From assembly GCA_020061705.1 (NCBI GenBank), contig JAGUXT010000038.1, positions 1 to 64,000 on the forward strand: a DNA stretch of 64,000 bases. The letters run 5' to 3'. Under the pieces are notes generated by a model, which was given only the letters and a program-made list of their open reading frames with translations, was not told the origin of the DNA and did not search any database. Of the stretch, positions 42,722 through 52,804 are shown piece by piece; position 1 is the first letter of the stretch, and every line of letters begins with the position of its first letter. The translations under genes were made by a program, and so were the position numbers. Origin of the DNA: Halothiobacillus sp. (GTDB lineage: Bacteria > Pseudomonadota > Gammaproteobacteria > Halothiobacillales > Halothiobacillaceae).

Positions 42722-42886
42722 TCAGGTTACGCACTTGTTGCGATTTTTGCGGCAGGCTTCGGAGCAGTACTTCACCTCGTCCCATACCTTGGCCCATTTT
42801 TTACGCCAGACAGACGGGCGAGCGCAAATCGCACAGGTTATCTGCGGAAGCAAGGTTTTGTCATTGGCCTGGCGGATTGGCATCAT
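42722..42886 (-). CDS. DUF2256 small zinc-ribbon protein
   Basis: A 54-residue protein with two cysteine pairs, CAIC and CSEAC, flanking PSVWRKKWAKVWDEVKY, the signature of DUF2256. It would bind one zinc. DUF2256 genes are typically found beside photolyase/cryptochrome genes (recollection), and here the gene follows a LOV photosensor gene by 24 bp. Two ATG codons (42886, 42883) are possible; neither has a strong ribosome-binding site. Function unknown. Confidence 0.85.
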   Translation of the reverse strand: MMPIRQANDKTLLPQITCAICARPSVWRKKWAKVWDEVKYCSEACRKNRNKCVT

Positions 42887-42910: not shown

Positions 42911-43348
42911 TTAACTGGTTGCGGCGGCACGAAATGCAGCCAGCTCGGTGCGCAGGCGTTCAATCTCGTTTTCGAGGGCAACCTCTCGGGTGACTTCCTT
43001 TTGAATGCCGATGTAGTAAGTCAATTCGCTCGCTTCGTCATATACCGGAGTGATGGAAAGCTCATTCCAAAACAGGCTGCCATCCTTACGGTAGTTTCTG
43101 AGCACGGTGCGCACGGGCTGACCTTGAGCCAAGGCCGCACGGATGGAATAAACACCGGCCTGTTCGCGATCATTGCCCTGCAAAAAGCGGCAATCCTGAT
43201 AGAGGATTTCATCCGCCGCATAACCGGTAAGACGCTCAAAAGCCGGGTTAACGTAGATCAGAATATGGTCGTCCCCCTCCTGTTCGGAGATGACAATGCC
43301 GTCATTGGAGGCTTGAATGGCTTTAATCAGCAGTTCGGCGTTTAACAT
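42911..43348 (-). CDS. Short LOV blue-light photoreceptor
   Basis: A 145-residue stand-alone LOV domain with a C-terminal helix, very like the short LOV proteins of Pseudomonas putida (PpSB1/PpSB2-LOV). The photoactive cysteine is C53 in YQDCRFLQGND, with the flavin-contact motifs NPAFERLTGY, LRNYRKDGSLFWNELSITP and YYIGIQKEVT. No effector domain is present; output probably passes through dimerisation or a partner. It starts 4 bp after the LitR-like gene, which makes that regulator the obvious partner. The start at 43348 (MLNAELL) matches the family. Confidence 0.92.
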   Translation of the reverse strand: MLNAELLIKAIQASNDGIVISEQEGDDHILIYVNPAFERLTGYAADEILYQDCRFLQGNDREQAGVYSIRAALAQGQPVRTVLRNYRKDGSLFWNELSITPVYDEASELTYYIGIQKEVTREVALENEIERLRTELAAFRAAATS

Positions 43349-43352
43349 GGGA

Positions 43353-44312
43353 CTAATCCTGCGCAACGGTATGATTTTCACGACGTAACGTTTGGGTAAT
43401 CAAGTTTAGCGGAGCGTCATCTTTTGAGCCTGGATGGTGAATGCCTAATTCCGCAAGCGTAGCACCAAGCTCAAATGCGTAATGACCCACGGCAATGATC
43501 TTATGCCCTGCGGCGGCGAGTAATGGAAGCTGGCTACCGAGGACGGCTGTTGGGGGTTTGTGCTCAAGCAGAAGAACCAGGGTCTGTACCGACTGTGTTT
43601 GCATGGCCTGAAGCAAGGTCTGCGCCGGAACACCGGAGCCAAACAAGCGCGCATCCATACCCGCACGACGTAGCGACCAAACCAGATGCCACATGGCAAA
43701 CATCCCGCGCTCCGGCGGAAGGCTGGCAACAAGCATCGGCGGTTGCTGCGGATGGTCAGGAATGTTCCGCGCGGCATTGGCCAGCATGATCGTCAGGCGG
43801 TTTTGTAAAAGACGATACTCAGCATCCACTTGGGCGGACAGCAGACGATTGGCATCCATGCCGTGCATGAGAGGAATCAGATACATGGCGAGAAGATCAT
43901 CAAGCTGCATCAATCCAAGTGCATTGGCTTCCAGAATGGTCAGAGCAGCTTCGTCAAGTGTGGACAAGGCGCTACGATAGTTTTGCAGCCATGAAGCGGA
44001 CGCATCCAGATTATTCTCATGCACATCTACCGTATCAACCGCTATGGCTACAGGTTCACTGCGCGGTGCGTGTTCAAGCATGACGGGGACTTGGCCAATC
44101 GATACGCCCAGCTCCAGCATCGCCGTTATACGCTGAATGTCTTTAATATCCTGCTGCCGATAGAGGCGATGCCCCTTTTCGGTGCGTATCGGCTTAATCA
44201 GCCCATAGCGCCGCTCCCATGCGCGCAAGGTAATCGGATTAACCCCGGTGAGCTTGGCAACCGTACGCATCGGAAAAAAACCATGCTCATTTATGAGGTT
44301 ATCGGGAATCAC
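43353..44312 (-). CDS. LitR-like MerR family light regulator (class II, no B12 motif)
   Basis: A 319-residue regulator: MerR HTH (TVAKLTGVNPITLRAWERRYG, KGHRLYRQQDI), a helical bundle (residues about 115-190) and a C-terminal Rossmann-like domain. CarH/LitR photoreceptors bind adenosylcobalamin through an E-x-x-H motif; the corresponding stretch here is SLPPERGMFAMWHL without it. This fits the class II LitR proteins, which depend on a LOV partner rather than B12 (recalled from P. putida work). The start is GTG at 44312; the next ATG lies inside the HTH. A dyad operator lies 24 bp upstream. Confidence 0.85.
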   Translation of the reverse strand: MIPDNLINEHGFFPMRTVAKLTGVNPITLRAWERRYGLIKPIRTEKGHRLYRQQDIKDIQRITAMLELGVSIGQVPVMLEHAPRSEPVAIAVDTVDVHENNLDASASWLQNYRSALSTLDEAALTILEANALGLMQLDDLLAMYLIPLMHGMDANRLLSAQVDAEYRLLQNRLTIMLANAARNIPDHPQQPPMLVASLPPERGMFAMWHLVWSLRRAGMDARLFGSGVPAQTLLQAMQTQSVQTLVLLLEHKPPTAVLGSQLPLLAAAGHKIIAVGHYAFELGATLAELGIHHPGSKDDAPLNLITQTLRRENHTVAQD

Positions 44313-44335: not shown

Positions 44336-44352
44336 TGTACAAGGATTGTACA
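44336..44352. promoter_or_regulatory. LitR-type operator in the litR/SDR divergent promoter
   Basis: A perfect dyad TGTACAAGGATTGTACA (7+3+7) lies in the 58-bp gap between the LitR-like gene and the SDR operon. MerR-family regulators bind such spaced dyads. The half-site TGTACAA recurs in relaxed form (TGTRCAA) in two more dyads at 50001 and 50099, upstream of other genes of the cluster. Assignment to LitR is inference. Confidence 0.7.
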
Positions 44353-44370
44353 ACATTACACGAGAATGGA

Positions 44371-45138
44371 ATGATGAATCAGCATGCAAAAATCAAACGC
44401 CCGCTGGCCTGGGTTACTGGAGCCAGTAGTGGTATTGGTGCGGCCCTGGCAACGCAACTCGCTGACGCGGGTTGGCATGTTGTGGCTTCGGCGCGCACAT
44501 TGGAAGCATTAGATCGCTTAGCGGCCACACACCCCTCGATAACCCCCCTGCCCCTTGATGTCACCGATTTAGAGGCCGTGCGTTCCGCCGTAGCGCAAAT
44601 CCATCATCAGCATGGTGACATTGATGCCGCGGTTTTAAATGCAGGTGATTACAAGCCAATGGCCTTGGCCGATTTTGATGTCACTCTTTTTGAGCATTTG
44701 ATGCGGGTCAATTTTATGGGCGTGGTGCATGGTCTTGATGCCCTGCGTGAGCCGATGTGCCAGCGTGGCAGCGGGCAAATACTGATTACCGCGAGTGTGG
44801 CCGGTTATCGCGGCCTGCCGCTGGCGGCGGCGTATGGCGCGACCAAGGCGGCACTCATCAATATGGCCGAAGCCTTGCAGCCGGAATTTAAGGCGAGTGG
44901 GGTGCATTTGCGCGTGGTGAATCCGGGCTTTGTACGCACTCCACTGACTGATCTGAATGACTTTGCGATGCCGGGAATGATCGAACCGCATGAAGCTGCG
45001 CAAGCCATTTTGCGCGACCTGCATAAAACCAACTTTGAAATCAGCTTTCCCACAGGATTTGTGTTTGTAATGAAACGCTTGCGGAATCTACCTTATGCAT
45101 TGTTTTTTCCACTGATTCGCTGGATAACCAAAAAATGA
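44371..45138 (+). CDS. Short-chain dehydrogenase/reductase (light cluster)
   Basis: A 255-residue classical SDR. The cofactor motif is WVTGASSGIGAALATQL, the catalytic Ser-Tyr-Lys set is in TASVAGYRGLPLAAAYGATKAAL, and NAG is intact. A hydrophobic C-terminal stretch (LPYALFFPLIRWITKK) may associate with the membrane. Homologues occur with LitR, CFA synthase and DUF1365 in light or singlet-oxygen regulons of other proteobacteria. ATG 44371 or 44374 are both possible. ATGA overlap couples it to the NTF2-like gene. Confidence 0.88.
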   Translation: MMNQHAKIKRPLAWVTGASSGIGAALATQLADAGWHVVASARTLEALDRLAATHPSITPLPLDVTDLEAVRSAVAQIHHQHGDIDAAVLNAGDYKPMALADFDVTLFEHLMRVNFMGVVHGLDALREPMCQRGSGQILITASVAGYRGLPLAAAYGATKAALINMAEALQPEFKASGVHLRVVNPGFVRTPLTDLNDFAMPGMIEPHEAAQAILRDLHKTNFEISFPTGFVFVMKRLRNLPYALFFPLIRWITKK

Positions 45139-45548
45139 GTATTGATACAGCTGTCGATCGTTATGCCGACTTTTTTCGCAATTTTTCACCGAGTGATCTT
45201 GATCGTTTTCACGACTTTTTTGCCGAAAATGCCCATTTTCGTGATCCGTTTAATGATGTTTATGGCGTGGCTGCGATACGCAAGGTATTTGCGCACATGT
45301 ATCAGCAGTGTGCTCAACCGCGTTTTGAGGTGAATGACTACGCAATATCGGGTCAGGTGGCTTATCTGCACTGGCGATTTAACTGCGATGAAGGACTTGT
45401 TATCGACGGCCTGAGTAAGGTGGTTTTTGACGAGCGAGGCATGGTGCTTGAACACCTGGATTATTGGGATGCCGTTGCGCAGGTTTACCAGCGTATCCCA
45501 CTGCTTGGTTCAATCTTGCGCATTATCCGGCGCAAACTCGCCGCATAA
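45135..45548 (+). CDS. NTF2-like / SnoaL family protein (light cluster)
   Basis: A 137-residue alpha+beta cone-fold protein. FFAENAHFRDPFNDVYG and LHWRFNCDEGLVIDGLSKVVFDERG are typical of SnoaL-type nuclear transport factor 2-like proteins that accompany SDR genes in LitR/ChrR-type clusters. A basic, hydrophobic C-terminus (IPLLGSILRIIRRKLAA) is notable. It overlaps the SDR stop by 4 bp. Enzymatic activity is not known. Its end lies 9 bp from the convergent chalcone isomerase-like gene. Confidence 0.8.
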   Translation: MSIDTAVDRYADFFRNFSPSDLDRFHDFFAENAHFRDPFNDVYGVAAIRKVFAHMYQQCAQPRFEVNDYAISGQVAYLHWRFNCDEGLVIDGLSKVVFDERGMVLEHLDYWDAVAQVYQRIPLLGSILRIIRRKLAA

Positions 45549-45557
45549 CCGAGCTAA

Positions 45558-46094
45558 TTAATCCGCTTTATTGCCGAGCAATGCCAGACGAAGCTCAGGC
45601 GATAAGCATGCTTCACCAAGCCATATTCCAAAATACATTTCAGCCAAACGCGCATCACCACCCTGCCACACAGCTTGATCGTTAAGACTGAGAGTTACTC
45701 CCCGGGTCGGTCGATAATCCAAAGTGTAAACATCACCCTCGTTTACATCACGCATGGCGGCATGCAATTGGTCGAGTTGGTTTTTCCTGCTTTTCAATAC
45801 CTCGTCAGGCCATTGTTTTTGCAGTGTGCTCCATGCCGCCAGTTCAATATCACTGCGTTTGATTGCCAGCTTGTAGCGCAAGCTTAGTCGGCGGCTAGTT
45901 TCACCCTGCAGCGCAGCAGCGGCTGCAATACCGGGCGGCAAATACAAACGCGCTTCGTAAACCTCAAACAATAGATAATTGGCCGTGCCTTGACCGCGCA
46001 AGGTCAAGGCATCGTTGACAGGCTTGCTGCCTGATTCAGCCTGCACGGGTAAGGCAAGGCCGAATATCACGCCAAATATAAAAATAATTTTCAT
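45558..46094 (-). CDS. Secreted chalcone isomerase-like protein
   Basis: A 178-residue protein with a signal peptide (MKIIFIFGVIFGLALPVQA) and the bacterial chalcone isomerase-like fold (LRGQGTANYLLFEVYEARLYLP, YFGIWLGEACLSPELRLALLG). Bacterial members bind fatty acids or are of unknown activity; no flavonoid pathway is expected. Last gene of the FAD oxidase-DUF1365-CFA-DUF3833 operon, 11 bp after its neighbour. Confidence 0.85.
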   Translation of the reverse strand: MKIIFIFGVIFGLALPVQAESGSKPVNDALTLRGQGTANYLLFEVYEARLYLPPGIAAAAALQGETSRRLSLRYKLAIKRSDIELAAWSTLQKQWPDEVLKSRKNQLDQLHAAMRDVNEGDVYTLDYRPTRGVTLSLNDQAVWQGGDARLAEMYFGIWLGEACLSPELRLALLGNKAD

Positions 46095-46105
46095 CTTTGC
46101 GTCAC

Positions 46106-46642
46106 CTATTCAATCACCTTGGATTTACGCTGAAAAAACAAGGTAACCTGTCCCACCCCGAAACCAAACTTGCTGACTTTGGCGCGATTAAGTAAAACCT
46201 CATCGGGTTGCAGCAGCATCCAATCGTCAAAATCAACGGCAATCGTGCCGTCTCCGAAAGGTAATTCCAGTTTATAACGCCAATTCAAGGCCTGACCACG
46301 TTGTACACCCTCGGCCACACCAATCACATCCCCCGCGCGACCTTCATAACGCCCATCGTCCAACTTGCGAATCCGCCAAGTGCGGGTTTGCCTTTCACCA
46401 TCGTCATAAACGAACGATTCATCTAGCACAAACTCGCCGTCCTGATGGTAACCATGAGTATCCACGGTGAATTGACGCTTGATATTGCCTGAACCATCTT
46501 CAAACATGCCCCAGGCACGGGTATGGCCGCTGAAATAACTCTCCAAATCGAAAACAGGTGTCGTTTTGGCAAAGTCATCAATTTTCATGGTTGTGCATCC
46601 TCCAAGGGCGAGTAAAACAAGTCCGATAAGTAAAGCACGCAT
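46106..46642 (-). CDS. DUF3833 lipoprotein
   Basis: A 178-residue lipoprotein with lipobox ALGGCTTM. The mature domain (DLESYFSGHTRAWGMFEDGSG, WRIRKLDDGRYEGRAGDVIG) is DUF3833, a lipocalin-like family found almost only with CFA synthase and DUF1365 genes in light-response clusters. The start at 46642 (MRALLIGL) was chosen because the longer frame has no signal peptide. It lies 19 bp downstream of the CFA synthase gene. Confidence 0.88.
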   Translation of the reverse strand: MRALLIGLVLLALGGCTTMKIDDFAKTTPVFDLESYFSGHTRAWGMFEDGSGNIKRQFTVDTHGYHQDGEFVLDESFVYDDGERQTRTWRIRKLDDGRYEGRAGDVIGVAEGVQRGQALNWRYKLELPFGDGTIAVDFDDWMLLQPDEVLLNRAKVSKFGFGVGQVTLFFQRKSKVIE

Positions 46643-46661
46643 CAAAAATACCTCCCTAACA

Positions 46662-47882
46662 TCAGGCCGGTTTCTCCAGCACAATTTGCAGTAAATTGAC
46701 CCGACCCGCGCGGAAAGCGGCCTCACAGTAGGCGAGGTAGTACGACCACATACGACAAAAGCGCGGGTCATAACCTAGGGCAGTAATGTCTGTGTTTTTT
46801 GCCTCGAACGCTTCACGCCAAAGTGCCAGGGTACGGGCGTAGTCCAGGCCAAATAAGGCCTGATCTCGTACCTGTAAACCTGCCGCCTGCGCGCCTTGCA
46901 CAAACAGGTTTTGGGTGGGCAACATGCCGCCGGGAAAGATGTACAACTGTATATAATCAGGCTCACGGCGATAGCGCGGGTAGTCGGCTTCGTCAATCAC
47001 AATGACCTGAATCACTGCGCGTCCACCGGGGGCAAGTCGTCGATAAACGCTCTGGAAATAGCTTGGCCAGTATTTTTCACCCACGGCCTCAAACATTTCG
47101 ATCGAGACGATATGGTCAAATTCGCCGCTTTGATCTCGATAGTCCGTGAGTGAAAAGTTGACCTGAGCCGCTAATCCCGCTTCGTGCACGCGCTGTTCAC
47201 TCCATTTGAGCTGTTCCTGCGACAAGGTTATACTGGTGGTCTGAAATCCCCGCCGCGCGGCGTGCTCCGAAAAGCCACCCCAACCGCAACCAATTTCGAG
47301 AATATGTTGCCCCGGTTTGGCGTCCAACAAGCCTAGAAGACGGGCATATTTTGCCTCTTGAGCCTGTGCAAGACTGGCTTCTGGATGAGTGAACAGCGCA
47401 CTGGAGTAACTCATGCTCTCATCAAGCCAGAGCCGGTAGAAATCGTTACCCAAGTCATAGTGCGCTGCGATATTTTTGCGGCTGCCACGCTTACTGTTGG
47501 GGCGGCGCAAATGTTGCAAGCGGTGCAGTTGACGTAAAAACCAATGGGGTCGTAATTGCGCTTCCATGGCATCCATATTCAGTGCGCCCAAATACAATAG
47601 CTTGGCAACATCAGGACTCGACCAATCGCCCTCATGAAAGCCCTCGGCGAAACCAATCACCCCGCCACGCAATACGCGCTGCAAAAGTTGTGCAGGATGG
47701 TGCAGATTCCAATGCGCGTGCGGGCCATCGTGCCGGCCATGCAAGTGCAGGCTGGGGGCATGGTCGAAATGAATACTCAGGTGCCCATACGCAAGATCGC
47801 GCAAAAAATGTTTCAGACCTTGCGCCGCCAAGGGGAGATGCTGGGCGGGCAGATTCAGATTTTTGGTGTGTTCTGCTTGCAT
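46662..47882 (-). CDS. Cyclopropane-fatty-acyl-phospholipid synthase family protein
   Basis: A 406-residue SAM-dependent methyltransferase acting on unsaturated acyl chains in membrane phospholipids. SAM-binding motif: ILEIGCGWGGFSEHAAR; others are SYSSALF, QELLKWSEQRV-like LSQEQLKWSEQRV, and IVSIEMFEAVGEKYW. An N-terminal helical lipid-binding domain of about 110 residues precedes it. In Rhodobacter the homologue in the sigmaE-ChrR regulon makes furan fatty acid precursors (recollection). It overlaps DUF1365 by 28 bp. Confidence 0.92.
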   Translation of the reverse strand: MQAEHTKNLNLPAQHLPLAAQGLKHFLRDLAYGHLSIHFDHAPSLHLHGRHDGPHAHWNLHHPAQLLQRVLRGGVIGFAEGFHEGDWSSPDVAKLLYLGALNMDAMEAQLRPHWFLRQLHRLQHLRRPNSKRGSRKNIAAHYDLGNDFYRLWLDESMSYSSALFTHPEASLAQAQEAKYARLLGLLDAKPGQHILEIGCGWGGFSEHAARRGFQTTSITLSQEQLKWSEQRVHEAGLAAQVNFSLTDYRDQSGEFDHIVSIEMFEAVGEKYWPSYFQSVYRRLAPGGRAVIQVIVIDEADYPRYRREPDYIQLYIFPGGMLPTQNLFVQGAQAAGLQVRDQALFGLDYARTLALWREAFEAKNTDITALGYDPRFCRMWSYYLAYCEAAFRAGRVNLLQIVLEKPA

Positions 47883-48661
47883 ACGCTGCTGTCTTTTTCA
47901 GGGTGTGGTGGTGCGGGAAATAATCGTGCGCCCTTGAGCCAAATTTTGAGCGCCTGCCAATGGATGAGGGTGATGACCTTGAGGGTCAAAAAAGGGATGC
48001 GTAAACACTGCTTGAGCAGATTGCCATCCGTAAGCGGCTGTTGATGCGCTACATGTGTGGCGACCAGGAGACGCTTATCCCCTTCGGTTTCAAGGATATG
48101 CACCACGAGCCGCTCATCCGGCGGCAAAAAGCGGAAGTGATAGCGCATCGGCATATCGATGAACGGCGAGACATGAAACACCTTGTCGGCCTGAGCCTCG
48201 AATGGCCAAGCCAGCGCCTCGCCCTGGTTATGCAGAATGTAGTGGTGCCACTGGCCAAAGGTGTTGCTTACCGTACATACGATGGCGATCATGTCTCCCG
48301 CCTGATCTTCGCAATACCACGTCGTCATCGGGTTGAACTGGTAACCCAAAATTCGCGGATACGCATTAATACGTGCGCGCCCAAGAGGCACGTTGACTCC
48401 GGCCTGGAACAGCGCCTGCTCCAACCACGGCCGCAATGCTTGAGAACTGTGCGCACCATGATCGCGATCGTAGAAACTGAGTAAATTAAAGCGGTTATGT
48501 GAAAGCAGACGGTTATTTGGAAAGCCTGCTTCAATATCTTCCAAATCAAGCAGCACGCTGAAAACACTGTAATTAAAGCGATAAGCCAGCGGATAAAAAC
48601 GCTGGTGCATGACGTCGCCGACGTAAAGCGCCGACGCTGTGGCTGTGGCAGCGCTATTCAT
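47855..48661 (-). CDS. DUF1365 family protein
   Basis: A 268-residue member of DUF1365, which nearly always sits between an FAD oxidoreductase and a CFA synthase. Motifs: LYVGDVMHQRFYPLAYRFNY, NPMTTWYC, VCTVSNTFGQWHHYIL and KVFHVSPFIDM. The start at 48661 overlaps the FAD oxidase stop (ATGA). Probable role in the same lipid modification as the neighbouring enzymes; biochemical function unproven. Confidence 0.92.
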   Translation of the reverse strand: MNSAATATASALYVGDVMHQRFYPLAYRFNYSVFSVLLDLEDIEAGFPNNRLLSHNRFNLLSFYDRDHGAHSSQALRPWLEQALFQAGVNVPLGRARINAYPRILGYQFNPMTTWYCEDQAGDMIAIVCTVSNTFGQWHHYILHNQGEALAWPFEAQADKVFHVSPFIDMPMRYHFRFLPPDERLVVHILETEGDKRLLVATHVAHQQPLTDGNLLKQCLRIPFLTLKVITLIHWQALKIWLKGARLFPAPPHPEKDSSVCKQNTPKI

Positions 48662-49971
48662 GCCTGAACCCAAGGTGGCTGAATATCAAAATGAGCCGCC
48701 AGATCGACGGCCGAGCGCAGCGCGTCTTCGTGAAACCCGTAGCCAAAATAACTGCCGCAATACCAACTTTGACGATGCCCCTGAAGCTCGCGCATACGTG
48801 TTTGTGCCTGCATGGCCGCCGCATCAAAAACAGGATGGTGATAAACATAACGACCAATCACTTTGTCCTTGGCCGGAGGGTTCGGCGGATTAAGAGTGAC
48901 AAAATAATCGGTGGAGGTATCCAGTTTCTGCAGACAGTTCATCCAATAACTCACCGCCACACGCTCGGTGCTTTGAGTGCTTGCGTCGGCGGAATAGCCA
49001 AGGTAATTCCAGGACGACCATACCTTTTTCATGCGTGGCATCAGCGCCGTGTCGGCATGCAGCCAGGCGATATTTTCCTGATACTCAAACGCCCCCAACA
49101 GCTCGTTTTCCTTAACATCCGGGCTATCCAGCATGGCAAGAGCCTGATCGGCATGACAGGCAAACACCACCGCATCAAAACGGGTAGATTCATTGTTTAT
49201 GTAAACACCATCTTCGCGCCGTGCGACATGCTCAACCGGGCTATTGAGCCGCAATTCAAACCGCCCGGAAGCCAGAAATTGATCAACATAACTGCGGCTG
49301 CCGTTTACAACCGTTCGCCACAGCGGGCGGTCGATCAAATTGAGCAGGCCATGATTGTTGAAAAAGCGCGCAAAGCTCAAAAAAGGAAAGCGCAGCATGG
49401 TCTCCGTTGGACATGACCAAATCGCGGCGGCCATGGGCAAAAGATAATGATGCCTAAACGCAAGGTTGAAGTGATGTCGATCCAGCATATCCCCCAGGGA
49501 CTCAGCATGTGCCGTAACAGCCGTTGGCTCATATTCGTCCAACGCCTTCTTGGCAAGCCGGTTAAAGCGCAAAATATCCGAAGCCATGCCCAAAAAGGCA
49601 GGACGTAATAGATTGGCTCGCTGGGCGAACAAGGTGTCCAGGCTATTGCCCGCGTATTCCAGCCGACCATGATCAAGTGAAACCGCAAAGCTCATTTCGC
49701 TTTCCTGGGTACTCACGCCCAAGTGCCGAAAGAGCGCACTCAAATGCGGGTAATTGGGTTCGTTGTACACAATGAATCCCGTGTCCACGGCAAGCTCACG
49801 TACTGCTGCGCCCTCGCCTTCCCGTACGGTGATCGTGTGTGTGTGACCGCCGGGATAGTCGTTCGCTTCAAACAGTGTGACCCGATGGCGCGAGCCCAGC
49901 ATCCATGCGGCTGAAAGACCGGCAACGCCCGCGCCAATCACGGCAATATTTAATAATGGCTTGGAACTCAT
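48658..49971 (-). CDS. FAD-dependent amine oxidase-like oxidoreductase
   Basis: A 437-residue flavoprotein. The FAD dinucleotide motif is IAVIGAGVAGLSAAWML with the GG motif YPGGHTHT. Homologues precede DUF1365 and CFA synthase in light and singlet-oxygen regulons and may desaturate methylated fatty acids (as proposed for UfaD-type enzymes). The start is ATG 49971 (MSSKPLLN); a GTG frame reaching 50016 overlaps the operator. First gene of a five-gene operon running to 45558. Confidence 0.9.
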   Translation of the reverse strand: MSSKPLLNIAVIGAGVAGLSAAWMLGSRHRVTLFEANDYPGGHTHTITVREGEGAAVRELAVDTGFIVYNEPNYPHLSALFRHLGVSTQESEMSFAVSLDHGRLEYAGNSLDTLFAQRANLLRPAFLGMASDILRFNRLAKKALDEYEPTAVTAHAESLGDMLDRHHFNLAFRHHYLLPMAAAIWSCPTETMLRFPFLSFARFFNNHGLLNLIDRPLWRTVVNGSRSYVDQFLASGRFELRLNSPVEHVARREDGVYINNESTRFDAVVFACHADQALAMLDSPDVKENELLGAFEYQENIAWLHADTALMPRMKKVWSSWNYLGYSADASTQSTERVAVSYWMNCLQKLDTSTDYFVTLNPPNPPAKDKVIGRYVYHHPVFDAAAMQAQTRMRELQGHRQSWYCGSYFGYGFHEDALRSAVDLAAHFDIQPPWVQA

Positions 49972-50000
49972 ACTGACCCAGTGTTGTCTGTTGAATGCGT

Positions 50001-50017
50001 TGTATAAGTTTTGCACA
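50001..50017. promoter_or_regulatory. LitR-type operator upstream of the FAD oxidase operon
   Basis: TGTATAAGTTTTGCACA matches the perfect dyad at 44336 in 13 of 17 positions, with half-sites TGTATAA and TGTGCAA around a 3-bp spacer. It lies 30 bp before the FAD oxidase start and overlaps a possible minus-strand promoter (TTGTGT, 18 bp, TATACA), an arrangement suited to control by a MerR-type protein. Confidence 0.55.
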
Positions 50018-50098
50018 TATAATCACACAACTTCGCAACTTCCAACGCCCTTTTGCACACAATGACCCTATAAGTGCGAGTATTCAATCACCCAAGTC

Positions 50099-50115
50099 TA
50101 TGCAACTGTTGTGCA
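50099..50115. promoter_or_regulatory. LitR-type operator upstream of the aldo/keto reductase operon
   Basis: TATGCAACTGTTGTGCA has half-sites TATGCAA and TGCACAA around a 3-bp spacer and keeps the spacing and the CAA/TTG cores of the 44336 dyad. It lies 33 bp before the aldo/keto reductase start, in the same divergent gap as the 50001 site. Control by the LitR-like protein is inferred from similarity only. Confidence 0.5.
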
Positions 50116-50147: not shown

Positions 50148-51182
50148 ATGCAGTATCGAAAACTGGGCTGGACGGACGTGAATATTTCCGCCATTGCCCT
50201 TGGCACCATGACTTTTGGCGAACAAAACACCGAGACCGAGGCTCACCGGCAGCTTGATATGGCTTTCGAACATGGTGTTAATTTCATTGATGTGGCGGAG
50301 ATGTACCCCGTGCCGCCGCGCGCCGAAACGCAAGGCTTAACCGAAACCTTTGTCGGGCATTGGCTGAGTCGCCAAGCGCGCGACAGGGTTTTTCTGGCCA
50401 CCAAAGTCACGGGACCATCACGCGGATTTGACTGGATTCGGGGTGGGCCACGCTTGAGTGTCGGGCACATGCGCGAAGCCTTGGAGGGCAGCCTGCGCCG
50501 CTTGAACACGGACTACATCGACCTTTACCAAATTCATTGGCCGGATCGTTATGTGCCCATGTTTGGTGAAAGCGCCTTCGATGCAAAACGCCTGCACGAA
50601 TGCACACCCGTCCTGCAACAGCTTGAAGTACTGGATGAATTTGTCCAATCCGGCAAGGTGCGTTATGTCGGCCTGAGCAATGAAACGGCCTGGGGGGTGA
50701 ACGAGTTCGTACGTCAGGCTGAAAAGCATGGTTTACCGCGTATCGCCTCCATACAAAACGCCTACAACCTGCTTAATCGCAGTTTTGAAAGCACCCTGGC
50801 CGAAACCTGCCATTACCTGAACGTGCCCTTGTTGGCCTATAGCCCGCTGGCCTTTAGTTGGTTGAGCGGTAAATCCTTTGATAAGAATTCCAACGGTGGT
50901 CGCTTGAAGCTTTATCCAAACTTCGGTCGACGTTATGCCAAAACCAACGTACCCGAAGCGACGGCGGAATACCTGCGTATTGCCTGCGAAGCCGGGCTTG
51001 ATCCGTCCCAGATGGCAATTGCCTATGTGCTGGAGCAAGGTTTTGTTGGCAGCGTGATTATTGGCGCAACTTCATTGACGCAATTAAAAAGCAATTTGGA
51101 CGCGCTGGACGTGCAGATTCCCAATCATGTACGTGGAAAAATCGACCTTGTACATCGGCGTTATCCTGATCCCGCACCATGA
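50148..51182 (+). CDS. Aldo/keto reductase (Tas-like)
   Basis: A 344-residue NADPH-dependent TIM-barrel reductase, Tas/YajO-like. Motifs: ALGTMTFGEQN at the start, the catalytic Asp-Tyr in FIDVAEMYP, Lys in FLATKVTG, His in YQIHWPDRY, and the cofactor region SVIIGATSLTQLKSNL. An AGAAGGA ribosome-binding site precedes ATG. Its stop overlaps the DUF3429-DUF2237 gene (ATGA). Position after a LitR-type dyad suggests it belongs to the light regulon. Confidence 0.92.
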   Translation: MQYRKLGWTDVNISAIALGTMTFGEQNTETEAHRQLDMAFEHGVNFIDVAEMYPVPPRAETQGLTETFVGHWLSRQARDRVFLATKVTGPSRGFDWIRGGPRLSVGHMREALEGSLRRLNTDYIDLYQIHWPDRYVPMFGESAFDAKRLHECTPVLQQLEVLDEFVQSGKVRYVGLSNETAWGVNEFVRQAEKHGLPRIASIQNAYNLLNRSFESTLAETCHYLNVPLLAYSPLAFSWLSGKSFDKNSNGGRLKLYPNFGRRYAKTNVPEATAEYLRIACEAGLDPSQMAIAYVLEQGFVGSVIIGATSLTQLKSNLDALDVQIPNHVRGKIDLVHRRYPDPAP

Positions 51183-52039
51183 GTAAGAGCTTCGAAGTAC
51201 ATGCATTACAGCGTCCCGCGCAACTCCTGAGTTGCAGCGGCACGTTTCCTGTTATTGGCTTGGCACTTGCCATGATTGTGATGCGCGAAGCTCCCGAGTG
51301 GATGATTCAGGCTCTGACCAGTTATGCCGCCATTATTTTGGGCTTTCTTGGCGGCATTCATTGGGGCATGGGTCTTCTGCTTCACCGCGTCGCCAGGCTG
51401 TATATCGCTGTATTGCCCGCGCTTTATGCGTGGGGTGTACTTCAGCTCCCATGGCCAGTATCTGGTTGGGCTCTCGCCTTGGGATTTTTACTCATGCTCG
51501 GTCTGGATTGGCGCAGTCAGGTTTTACCTGCATGGTATCGGCAACTTCGCCTCTCGGCCTCGGTCGTCGTCATCCTGAATCTTTGTGTCGCGGCATGGCT
51601 GGTGACTGCCACCGCACAATCCACTCCTCAATCATCCATCCATCCAACGCTCAATGAGACTGCCATAAACAAAAACGTCCTCGGTACGGCTTTGCAGTTG
51701 TGCAGTAGCAACCCGCGCACCGGCTTTTATCGCAATGGATTTTGTGAAACGGGTGCTGATGATGTAGGAACGCACACGGTGTGTGCCGTACTCACGCAAG
51801 ATTTTCTTGATTACACCCTCTCGCGCGGCAATGACCTCATCACCCCACGCCCGGACTACAACTTTCCAGGGCTTAATCCGGGGGAAGGCTGGTGTCTGTG
51901 CGCCTTGCGCTGGCAAGAGGCTCTGCGTGGCGGCTTCCCGCCAACGGTGGTTTTGGATGCGACCAACAAGAAGACGCTCGACCATGTGCAGCGCGAAGAC
52001 CTCGTGCGCCATGCCTGGCCACAGCTCCAGGGTGAGTAA
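51179..52039 (+). CDS. DUF3429-DUF2237 fusion protein
   Basis: A 286-residue single frame with two unrelated modules. Residues about 15-145 are a DUF3429 membrane domain of four or five helices (IILGFLGGIHWGMGL). Residues about 165-280 are DUF2237: KNVLGTALQLC, TGFYRNGFCETGADDVGTH, RGNDLITPRPDYNFPGL and WCLCALRWQEAL, with several conserved cysteines. The linker is Ser/Thr/Gln-rich. Both families are usually separate proteins. The fusion suggests a membrane-tethered DUF2237. It overlaps the AKR stop and is 3 bp from the next gene. Confidence 0.82.
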   Translation: MSKSFEVHALQRPAQLLSCSGTFPVIGLALAMIVMREAPEWMIQALTSYAAIILGFLGGIHWGMGLLLHRVARLYIAVLPALYAWGVLQLPWPVSGWALALGFLLMLGLDWRSQVLPAWYRQLRLSASVVVILNLCVAAWLVTATAQSTPQSSIHPTLNETAINKNVLGTALQLCSSNPRTGFYRNGFCETGADDVGTHTVCAVLTQDFLDYTLSRGNDLITPRPDYNFPGLNPGEGWCLCALRWQEALRGGFPPTVVLDATNKKTLDHVQREDLVRHAWPQLQGE

Positions 52040-52042
52040 TCC

Positions 52043-52804
52043 ATGAGCGAGAGCAATTTTGAACGCTTCATCGGCATTGATTATTCAGGTGCCAAAGCAC
52101 CCAATGAATCACTGTCAGGGCTGCGTGTATTCATGGCTTCGCGCCATGGTCATGCCGAAGAAATTCGTCCTGATGGGGCTCGTCACTGGACACGGCAACA
52201 GCTTTTTACGTGGTTGGCAGACGAGATAAGCCACGGACCGCGCAGCTTGATTGGCATCGACCATGGGTTCTCGTTCCCCAAAATCCATTTTCTACGCCAC
52301 GCACTCAAAAGCTGGCCTGAGATGCTGGCCGACTTTATCGCGCGCACCCCTACGCATGAACACAGTGTGGAAAACTTGCGCCAGCAACACCGGTTGCGCA
52401 TCGAATCATCCACCAGCTTGCGCCTTTGTGAAACCTGGACAAGCTCGGCCAAAAGCGTGTTTCAGTTTGATGTGCAAGGCTCGGTGGCCAAGTCCACCTA
52501 CGCAGGATTGCCCTGGCTGCATTTATTGCGCCAGCAGGCAAAGGACAAGCTCCATTGCTGGCCCTTCGATGGCTGGGACATTCCGCAACAAGGCAGCGTA
52601 ATTTGCGAGGTTTACCCATCGCTCTACAAATGCCGCTACCCACGCGCTGATCGCGGCAAGGATGCGCACGACGCATATGCCACCGCGCGCTGGATGCAGG
52701 ATATGCAACAACGCGATGTTTTATCCAACTATTTTCAGCCTCCATTGAGTGCCGAAGAGCGCGAGCTCGCCAGCCTTGAAGGCTGGATTCTGGGCGTGCG
52801 CTAA
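52043..52804 (+). CDS. DUF429-like RNase H-fold protein
   Basis: A 253-residue protein with an RNase H/actin-like start (FIGIDYSGAKAPNESL), a second acidic strand (SLIGIDHGFSFP), and EVYPSLYK and DAHDAYATARWM later, as in DUF429 proteins. The acidic residues resemble a nuclease site, but activity is unproven. The C-terminus ends ASLEGWILGVR, a common DUF429 ending. Third gene of the AKR operon. The following gene has its own 74-bp upstream gap. Confidence 0.75.
   Translation: MSESNFERFIGIDYSGAKAPNESLSGLRVFMASRHGHAEEIRPDGARHWTRQQLFTWLADEISHGPRSLIGIDHGFSFPKIHFLRHALKSWPEMLADFIARTPTHEHSVENLRQQHRLRIESSTSLRLCETWTSSAKSVFQFDVQGSVAKSTYAGLPWLHLLRQQAKDKLHCWPFDGWDIPQQGSVICEVYPSLYKCRYPRADRGKDAHDAYATARWMQDMQQRDVLSNYFQPPLSAEERELASLEGWILGVR

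Follow-up and report, generated by a model that had tools for sequence, protein, structure and literature searches.

Which operons does a LitR-like repressor control when it is encoded beside a short LOV photoreceptor, and through what kind of DNA site? The question is raised by a 64-kb stretch of the 2.27-Mb genome of Halothiobacillus sp. (contig JAGUXT010000038.1, positions 1 to 64,000; here called the window). A preliminary description of this stretch claimed three 17-bp sites at 44336, 50001 and 50099, read as dyads serving one regulator, and all three are present at those positions, in a cluster that spans 5.8 kb. We combined genome-wide pattern searches with comparisons of orthologous loci, protein families and structural models, and consider it quite probable that a LOV-gated LitR, acting on tandem repeats, runs this cluster as a blue-light regulon.

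Candidate operators and their rarity

Predicted operator 1 (44336 to 44352, no strand assigned; TGTACAAGGATTGTACA) consists of two TGTACA units 11 bp apart and lies between litR, which runs leftward, and a short-chain dehydrogenase (SDR) gene, which runs rightward. Predicted operator 2 (50001 to 50017, minus strand; TGTATAAGTTTTGCACA) reads TGTGCA-N5-TATACA and faces the operon of a flavin adenine dinucleotide (FAD) oxidoreductase, and the less certain predicted operator 3 (50099 to 50115, plus strand; TATGCAACTGTTGTGCA) reads TATGCA-N5-TGTGCA and faces the operon of an aldo/keto reductase (AKR). Operators 2 and 3 share one 176-bp intergenic region. The six half-sites had been placed within two changes of TGTRCAA; each is in fact within one.

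The informativeness of the pattern depends on its stringency. With up to three mismatches the dyad form first proposed is uninformative, because its 10 matches in the window do not exceed the 11.0 expected in shuffles, and at zero to two mismatches the window keeps just the three sites. The genome-wide scan proposed at the outset, run with TGTRYAA-N3-TTGYACA and at most one mismatch, finds three places, namely 44336, 50001 and one near queC and a tRNA, so that two lie in the cluster and the motif is rare. The strict form TRTRCA-N5-TRTRCA occurs at four places in the whole genome, three of them inside the cluster. We set aside the fourth (C12:2518), which lies inside an ABC-transporter coding frame, and the earlier statement that there is no further convincing copy holds genome-wide. 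The chance that three of four random places in 2.27 Mb fall within 5.8 kb is approximately 1e-4, for a pattern that was fixed after the sites and the relatives had been viewed. A scored scan for 11-bp pairs in the window returns exactly these three sites against a shuffle mean of 1.05 (dinucleotide shuffles); as 8 of 100 shuffles reach three or more, it is the clustering at promoters that is unusual and not the count. We regard the three sites as good candidate operators for a repressor under blue-light control.

Probable tandem repeats in place of dyads

The sites are probably better read as direct repeats of 11 bp, arranged head to tail as is known for CarH/LitR, than as dyads. Because TGTACA is its own reverse complement, any two copies at an 11-bp spacing will pass for a 17-bp dyad whose spacer is 3 bp, and the site at 44336 is indeed a perfect dyad as read by that pattern. 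Upstream of orthologous FAD genes, the run of units extends: four tandem units are found at locus L053 (TGCACAATAAC CATACATGATC TATACATAAAC TATACA), the tandem units TGTGCAAAACC TGTACAGAGTT TATACA at L056, and five units at L054. Direct 11-bp pairs are present in 11 of 12 orthologous FAD promoters (fewer than 0.1 expected in shuffles) and in 15 of 16 litR upstream regions (0.07 expected), counts that overstate independence, since the relatives are phylogenetically related. Pairs at 22 bp, a spacing that is also enriched, occur in 7 FAD promoters and 10 litR upstream regions, and the distinct pairs of non-palindromic units at 11-bp spacing comprise 23 direct and 3 inverted. Counts of bases within the units are circular at the fixed positions and were left aside. 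The surrounding intergenic DNA mostly differs between and within two sister genera. With two to five units in the relatives, and runs of three to five standing in tandem, we abandoned the dyad reading of the preliminary description.

In published CarH operators, 11-bp nnnnTnnACAn repeats stand in tandem and overlap the −35 or −10 element (PMC9304148), and the relatives' promoters, with tandem 11-bp direct repeats containing TnnACA, are of this type. It is plausible that the TATACA unit of operator 2 (50001 to 50006) doubles as a −10 element; repression would then be steric.

Predicted regulator and photoreceptor

The litR gene (43353 to 44312, minus strand; Pfam MerR, CarH fold) encodes a predicted LitR/CarH-like MerR repressor without cobalamin ligands. 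Its structural model (mean predicted local distance difference test score, 82.5) has full-length CarH as its top Foldseek matches (E value, 4e-14), the DNA complex included, and unites the MerR helix-turn-helix, the CarH-like helical bundle and the Rossmann-type B12 domain fold that define the LitR/CarH family. This protein lacks the cobalamin motif W-x9-EH and has Gly aligned to the axial His, which sets it apart from the class I B12 photoreceptors; Pfam B12-binding_2 gives no match in it. In a phylogenetic tree, the cobalamin-motif proteins fall on their own side (support, 95/95), with this LitR outside that group. Lack of cobalamin ligands and a gene near that of a short LOV protein are the marks of class II LitR, and this LitR has both. 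It is the sole match of its kind in the genome at E values of ≤1e-3 and is likely the regulator of the sites.

The predicted short LOV blue-light photoreceptor (42911 to 43348, minus strand; Pfam PAS) starts 4 nucleotides downstream of litR. Its closest solved structures are short LOV “sensory box” proteins (E value, about 1e-57), and the conserved Cys stands at position 53, as in PmSB-LOV. The litR-LOV operon ends with the gene for a DUF2256 protein (42734 to 42886, minus strand; Pfam DUF2256, 1.9e-18).

In the dark, the cobalamin-independent repressor would bind the TRTRCA-N5 repeats overlapping the promoters of litR-LOV-DUF2256, of the SDR operon, of the FAD operon and, probably, of the operon that AKR leads. 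Under blue light, the short LOV protein would acquire a Cys53-flavin adduct, bind LitR and lift it off the DNA, so that the operons are expressed. Sites, rarity, tandem layout, protein families and lost cobalamin ligands are observations on the DNA and its products, and repression, LOV-LitR contact and light response are modeled on the PmlR2/PmSB-LOV pair of Pseudomonas mendocina, in which the lit LOV protein binds LitR in vitro, abolishes its DNA binding and relieves repression (PMC9758184).

Predicted target operons

Rightward from operator 1 run the SDR gene (44371 to 45138, plus strand; Pfam adh_short) and that of an NTF2/SnoaL-like protein (45135 to 45548, plus strand; Pfam SnoaL_2). The FAD operon, on the minus strand, encodes the FAD oxidoreductase (48658 to 49971; Pfam Amino_oxidase), which by comparison resembles the furan fatty acid desaturase UfaD, a UfaO-like DUF1365 protein (47855 to 48661; Pfam DUF1365, 8.5e-77), a UfaM-like CFA-type methyltransferase (46662 to 47882; Pfam CMAS, 3e-84), a DUF3833 protein (46106 to 46642; Pfam DUF3833, 2.2e-64) and a chalcone isomerase-like protein (45558 to 46094; Pfam Chalcone_3). 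UfaD is an FAD-binding desaturase related to phytoene desaturases, UfaO contains DUF1365, and together with UfaM they are sufficient for making furan fatty acids in Rhodobacter (PMC7380195). The three genes encoded together here appear to correspond to ufaD-ufaO-ufaM, a likeness drawn from their Pfam domains. Furan fatty acid synthesis would likely be under blue-light control in sulfur-oxidizing bacteria.

The AKR operon, on the plus strand, encodes the NADP(H)-dependent AKR (50148 to 51182; Pfam Aldo_ket_red; NCBIfam PRK10625 at 392.7 bits, with a cut-off of 415), a DUF3429-DUF2237 fusion protein (51179 to 52039; Pfam) and a 253-aa protein (52043 to 52804). The last had been labeled DUF429, a name we drop, as it has no Pfam match even at an E value of 10. 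In the 400 bp upstream of the photolyase gene of this genome (contig C1), there is no operator.

Conservation in relatives

A sister species, represented by a contig of a sulfur-cave metagenome-assembled genome (L126), encodes a LitR of 86% identity and keeps the gene order from litR to AKR. Its litR/SDR site reads TATACA-N5-TGTACA, and both units of its FAD site are unchanged. This public contig (DYPE01000148.1) is labeled Dichelobacter nodosus, a name that is probably wrong, as its cluster proteins are 77 to 97% identical to those of this genome.

The arrangement of LOV-LitR divergent from SDR-NTF2 is kept in the sister genera. In Cocleimonas flava, of another order, LOV, a LitR free of the cobalamin motif, SDR, the FAD operon and a photolyase form a compact cluster, with four tandem sites at the promoters of the FAD/LOV, SDR, LitR and photolyase genes (L156, positions 5199, 5928, 7898 and 10658). 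A RudS-like gene (DUF1722/2-thiouracil desulfurase) belongs to that cluster too. Thioalkalivibrio sulfidiphilus and Ectothiorhodospira marina carry sites before LitR/SDR and FAD, and T. denitrificans carries one before LitR/SDR; these loci (L135, L141 and L191) share the LitR-SDR-NTF2 arrangement with tandem sites. In a congener (G001; L035, 3047 to 9386), the run divergent from LitR reads folE-folX-(253-aa homologue)-folM-photolyase-epimerase, with the fol names assigned from the sequences; the homologue is 56% identical to the 253-aa protein, and a tandem site lies beside LitR. Light modestly induces folM and folE in P. mendocina (PMC9758184).

Candidate operators upstream of rpoS in sister genera

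When the strict pattern was searched for in two sister genera that belong to the same family (g3 and g4), sites came up directly upstream of rpoS, which encodes the general stress regulator. We examined the region upstream of rpoS in 20 of their genomes (L221 to L240), taking a score of at least 19 of 20 as a strong site. At least one strong tandem site, approximately 65 to 340 bp upstream, is found in 19 of the 20, and two tandem sites precede rpoS in at least 16; the twentieth (G024) has one weaker site. Upstream of rpoS in g1 and g2 genomes, this one included, there is no site. In alignments, the rpoS sites are conserved islands within diverged upstream DNA. From the shared motif we infer that the same LitR may act there. 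We marginally favor the fuller proposal that a LitR gated by LOV and free of cobalamin has retained the CarH-type tandem operator and, in the two sister genera, also directly controls rpoS via paired operators; blue light would then feed directly into the general stress response at the level of transcription. The rpoS operators make such an input directly testable in culturable species.

Alternative explanations

Were the sites true inverted-repeat operators for a symmetric LitR dimer, the perfect dyad at operator 1 would be accounted for, the reverse-complement symmetry of the published Pseudomonas consensus T(G/A)TACA-N12-TGTA(C/T)A would be matched, and a precedent would exist in the Myxococcus CarA operator, which has been described with inverted repeats. 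We think this unlikely, however, because with a self-palindromic unit symmetry comes at no cost, and because the relatives line up three to five units head to tail, favor direct over inverted pairs and show enrichment at 22 bp too. Less probable still is that a different regulator binds the sites and that LitR and LOV are mere neighbors. Some global regulator could explain the sites before rpoS, which lie far from litR in the sister genera, but the repeat equals CarH operators in unit and period, precedes litR itself in nearly every sequence compared, and recurs at LitR loci of other orders, whereas the genome of a congener that lacks a LitR orthologue (G003) holds a single match, and none at AKR.

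A narrower regulon, in which LitR controls only litR/SDR and the FAD operon, the match at 50099 is due to chance and the AKR operon lies outside, is a serious possibility, although we lean the other way. In the sister species the second unit of the AKR site is weakened to TGTGCG; elsewhere, no site precedes the AKR orthologues, which also do not adjoin FAD. Control of this operon is accordingly less certain. Set against this, 50099 is among only four strict matches genome-wide and shares its intergenic region with operator 2, and a homologue of the third AKR-operon gene stands in the LitR-divergent cluster of a congener. The preliminary description had assigned all of the operons to one regulator; on the evidence, predicted LitR control has good support at litR-LOV, SDR-NTF2 and the FAD operon, and moderate support at AKR.

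Besides the weakened AKR site and the shared ancestry behind the promoter counts, several observations weigh against a LOV-gated LitR acting on CarH-type repeats in this cluster. CarH operators mostly have three or four units, whereas each window site has two clear ones, and three of the six units match only as TnnGCA and not as TnnACA. A sigma-70 consensus scan finds no formal promoter. The tree joins this LitR with Pseudomonas class II at weak support (49/88), and the operator of that class has N12 where the sites here have N5, in the 11-bp tandem arrangement; the lone N12-type pair with one mismatch in the window lies at 49764, inside the FAD gene. Finally, no LOV gene was found in the 8-kb flanks of the Thioalkalivibrio and Ectothiorhodospira loci, and for that reason operators alone do not imply LOV control.

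Comparison with known systems

The combination of LOV with a cobalamin-free LitR is already published as a kind of system (PMC9758184), and the closest known examples are the class II pairs PmlR2/PmSB-LOV of P. mendocina and PplR/PpSB-LOV of P. putida. They share with this locus a litR near a short LOV gene, a LitR without cobalamin ligands, Cys53 in LOV, a TGTACA core, and, as targets that are predicted here, SDR, FAD oxidoreductase and UfaM. Apart from operator spacing, they differ from it in that the photolyase gene here is at another place in the genome and has no site, an AKR operon is added, and LitR gives no Pfam B12-binding_2 match. The operator geometry, the addition of AKR and the rpoS sites of the sister genera are absent from the papers on such systems that we located.

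Class I CarH/LitR (Thermus, Bacillus megaterium and Myxococcus) is the same type of MerR repressor, with the CarH fold and a tandem 11-bp operator, and light lifts its repression, as we propose for the counterpart here. Class I proteins, however, sense light by adenosylcobalamin and control carotenoid genes; the LitR described here lacks the ligands and has a LOV gene beside its own, and no carotenoid genes were found. This suggests a possible origin of LOV-coupled LitR, in which the CarH-style tandem operator was retained and cobalamin gave way to a partner LOV protein as the light sensor. In Rhodobacter sphaeroides, ufaM-ufaD-ufaO likewise place a CFA-type methylase, an FAD desaturase and a DUF1365 protein together, but the furan fatty acid pathway is raised there by ChrR loss (in chrR mutants), whereas here a predicted LitR operator precedes the operon.

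Most of the Pseudomonas LOV loci that we found have no strict pairs at 11, 18 or 19 bp. Aeromonas LitR loci (L151, L162, L164, L165 and others) carry TRTACA pairs approximately 1 kb upstream of LitR, with a 19-bp period rather than one of 11 bp, which may represent a further operator geometry.

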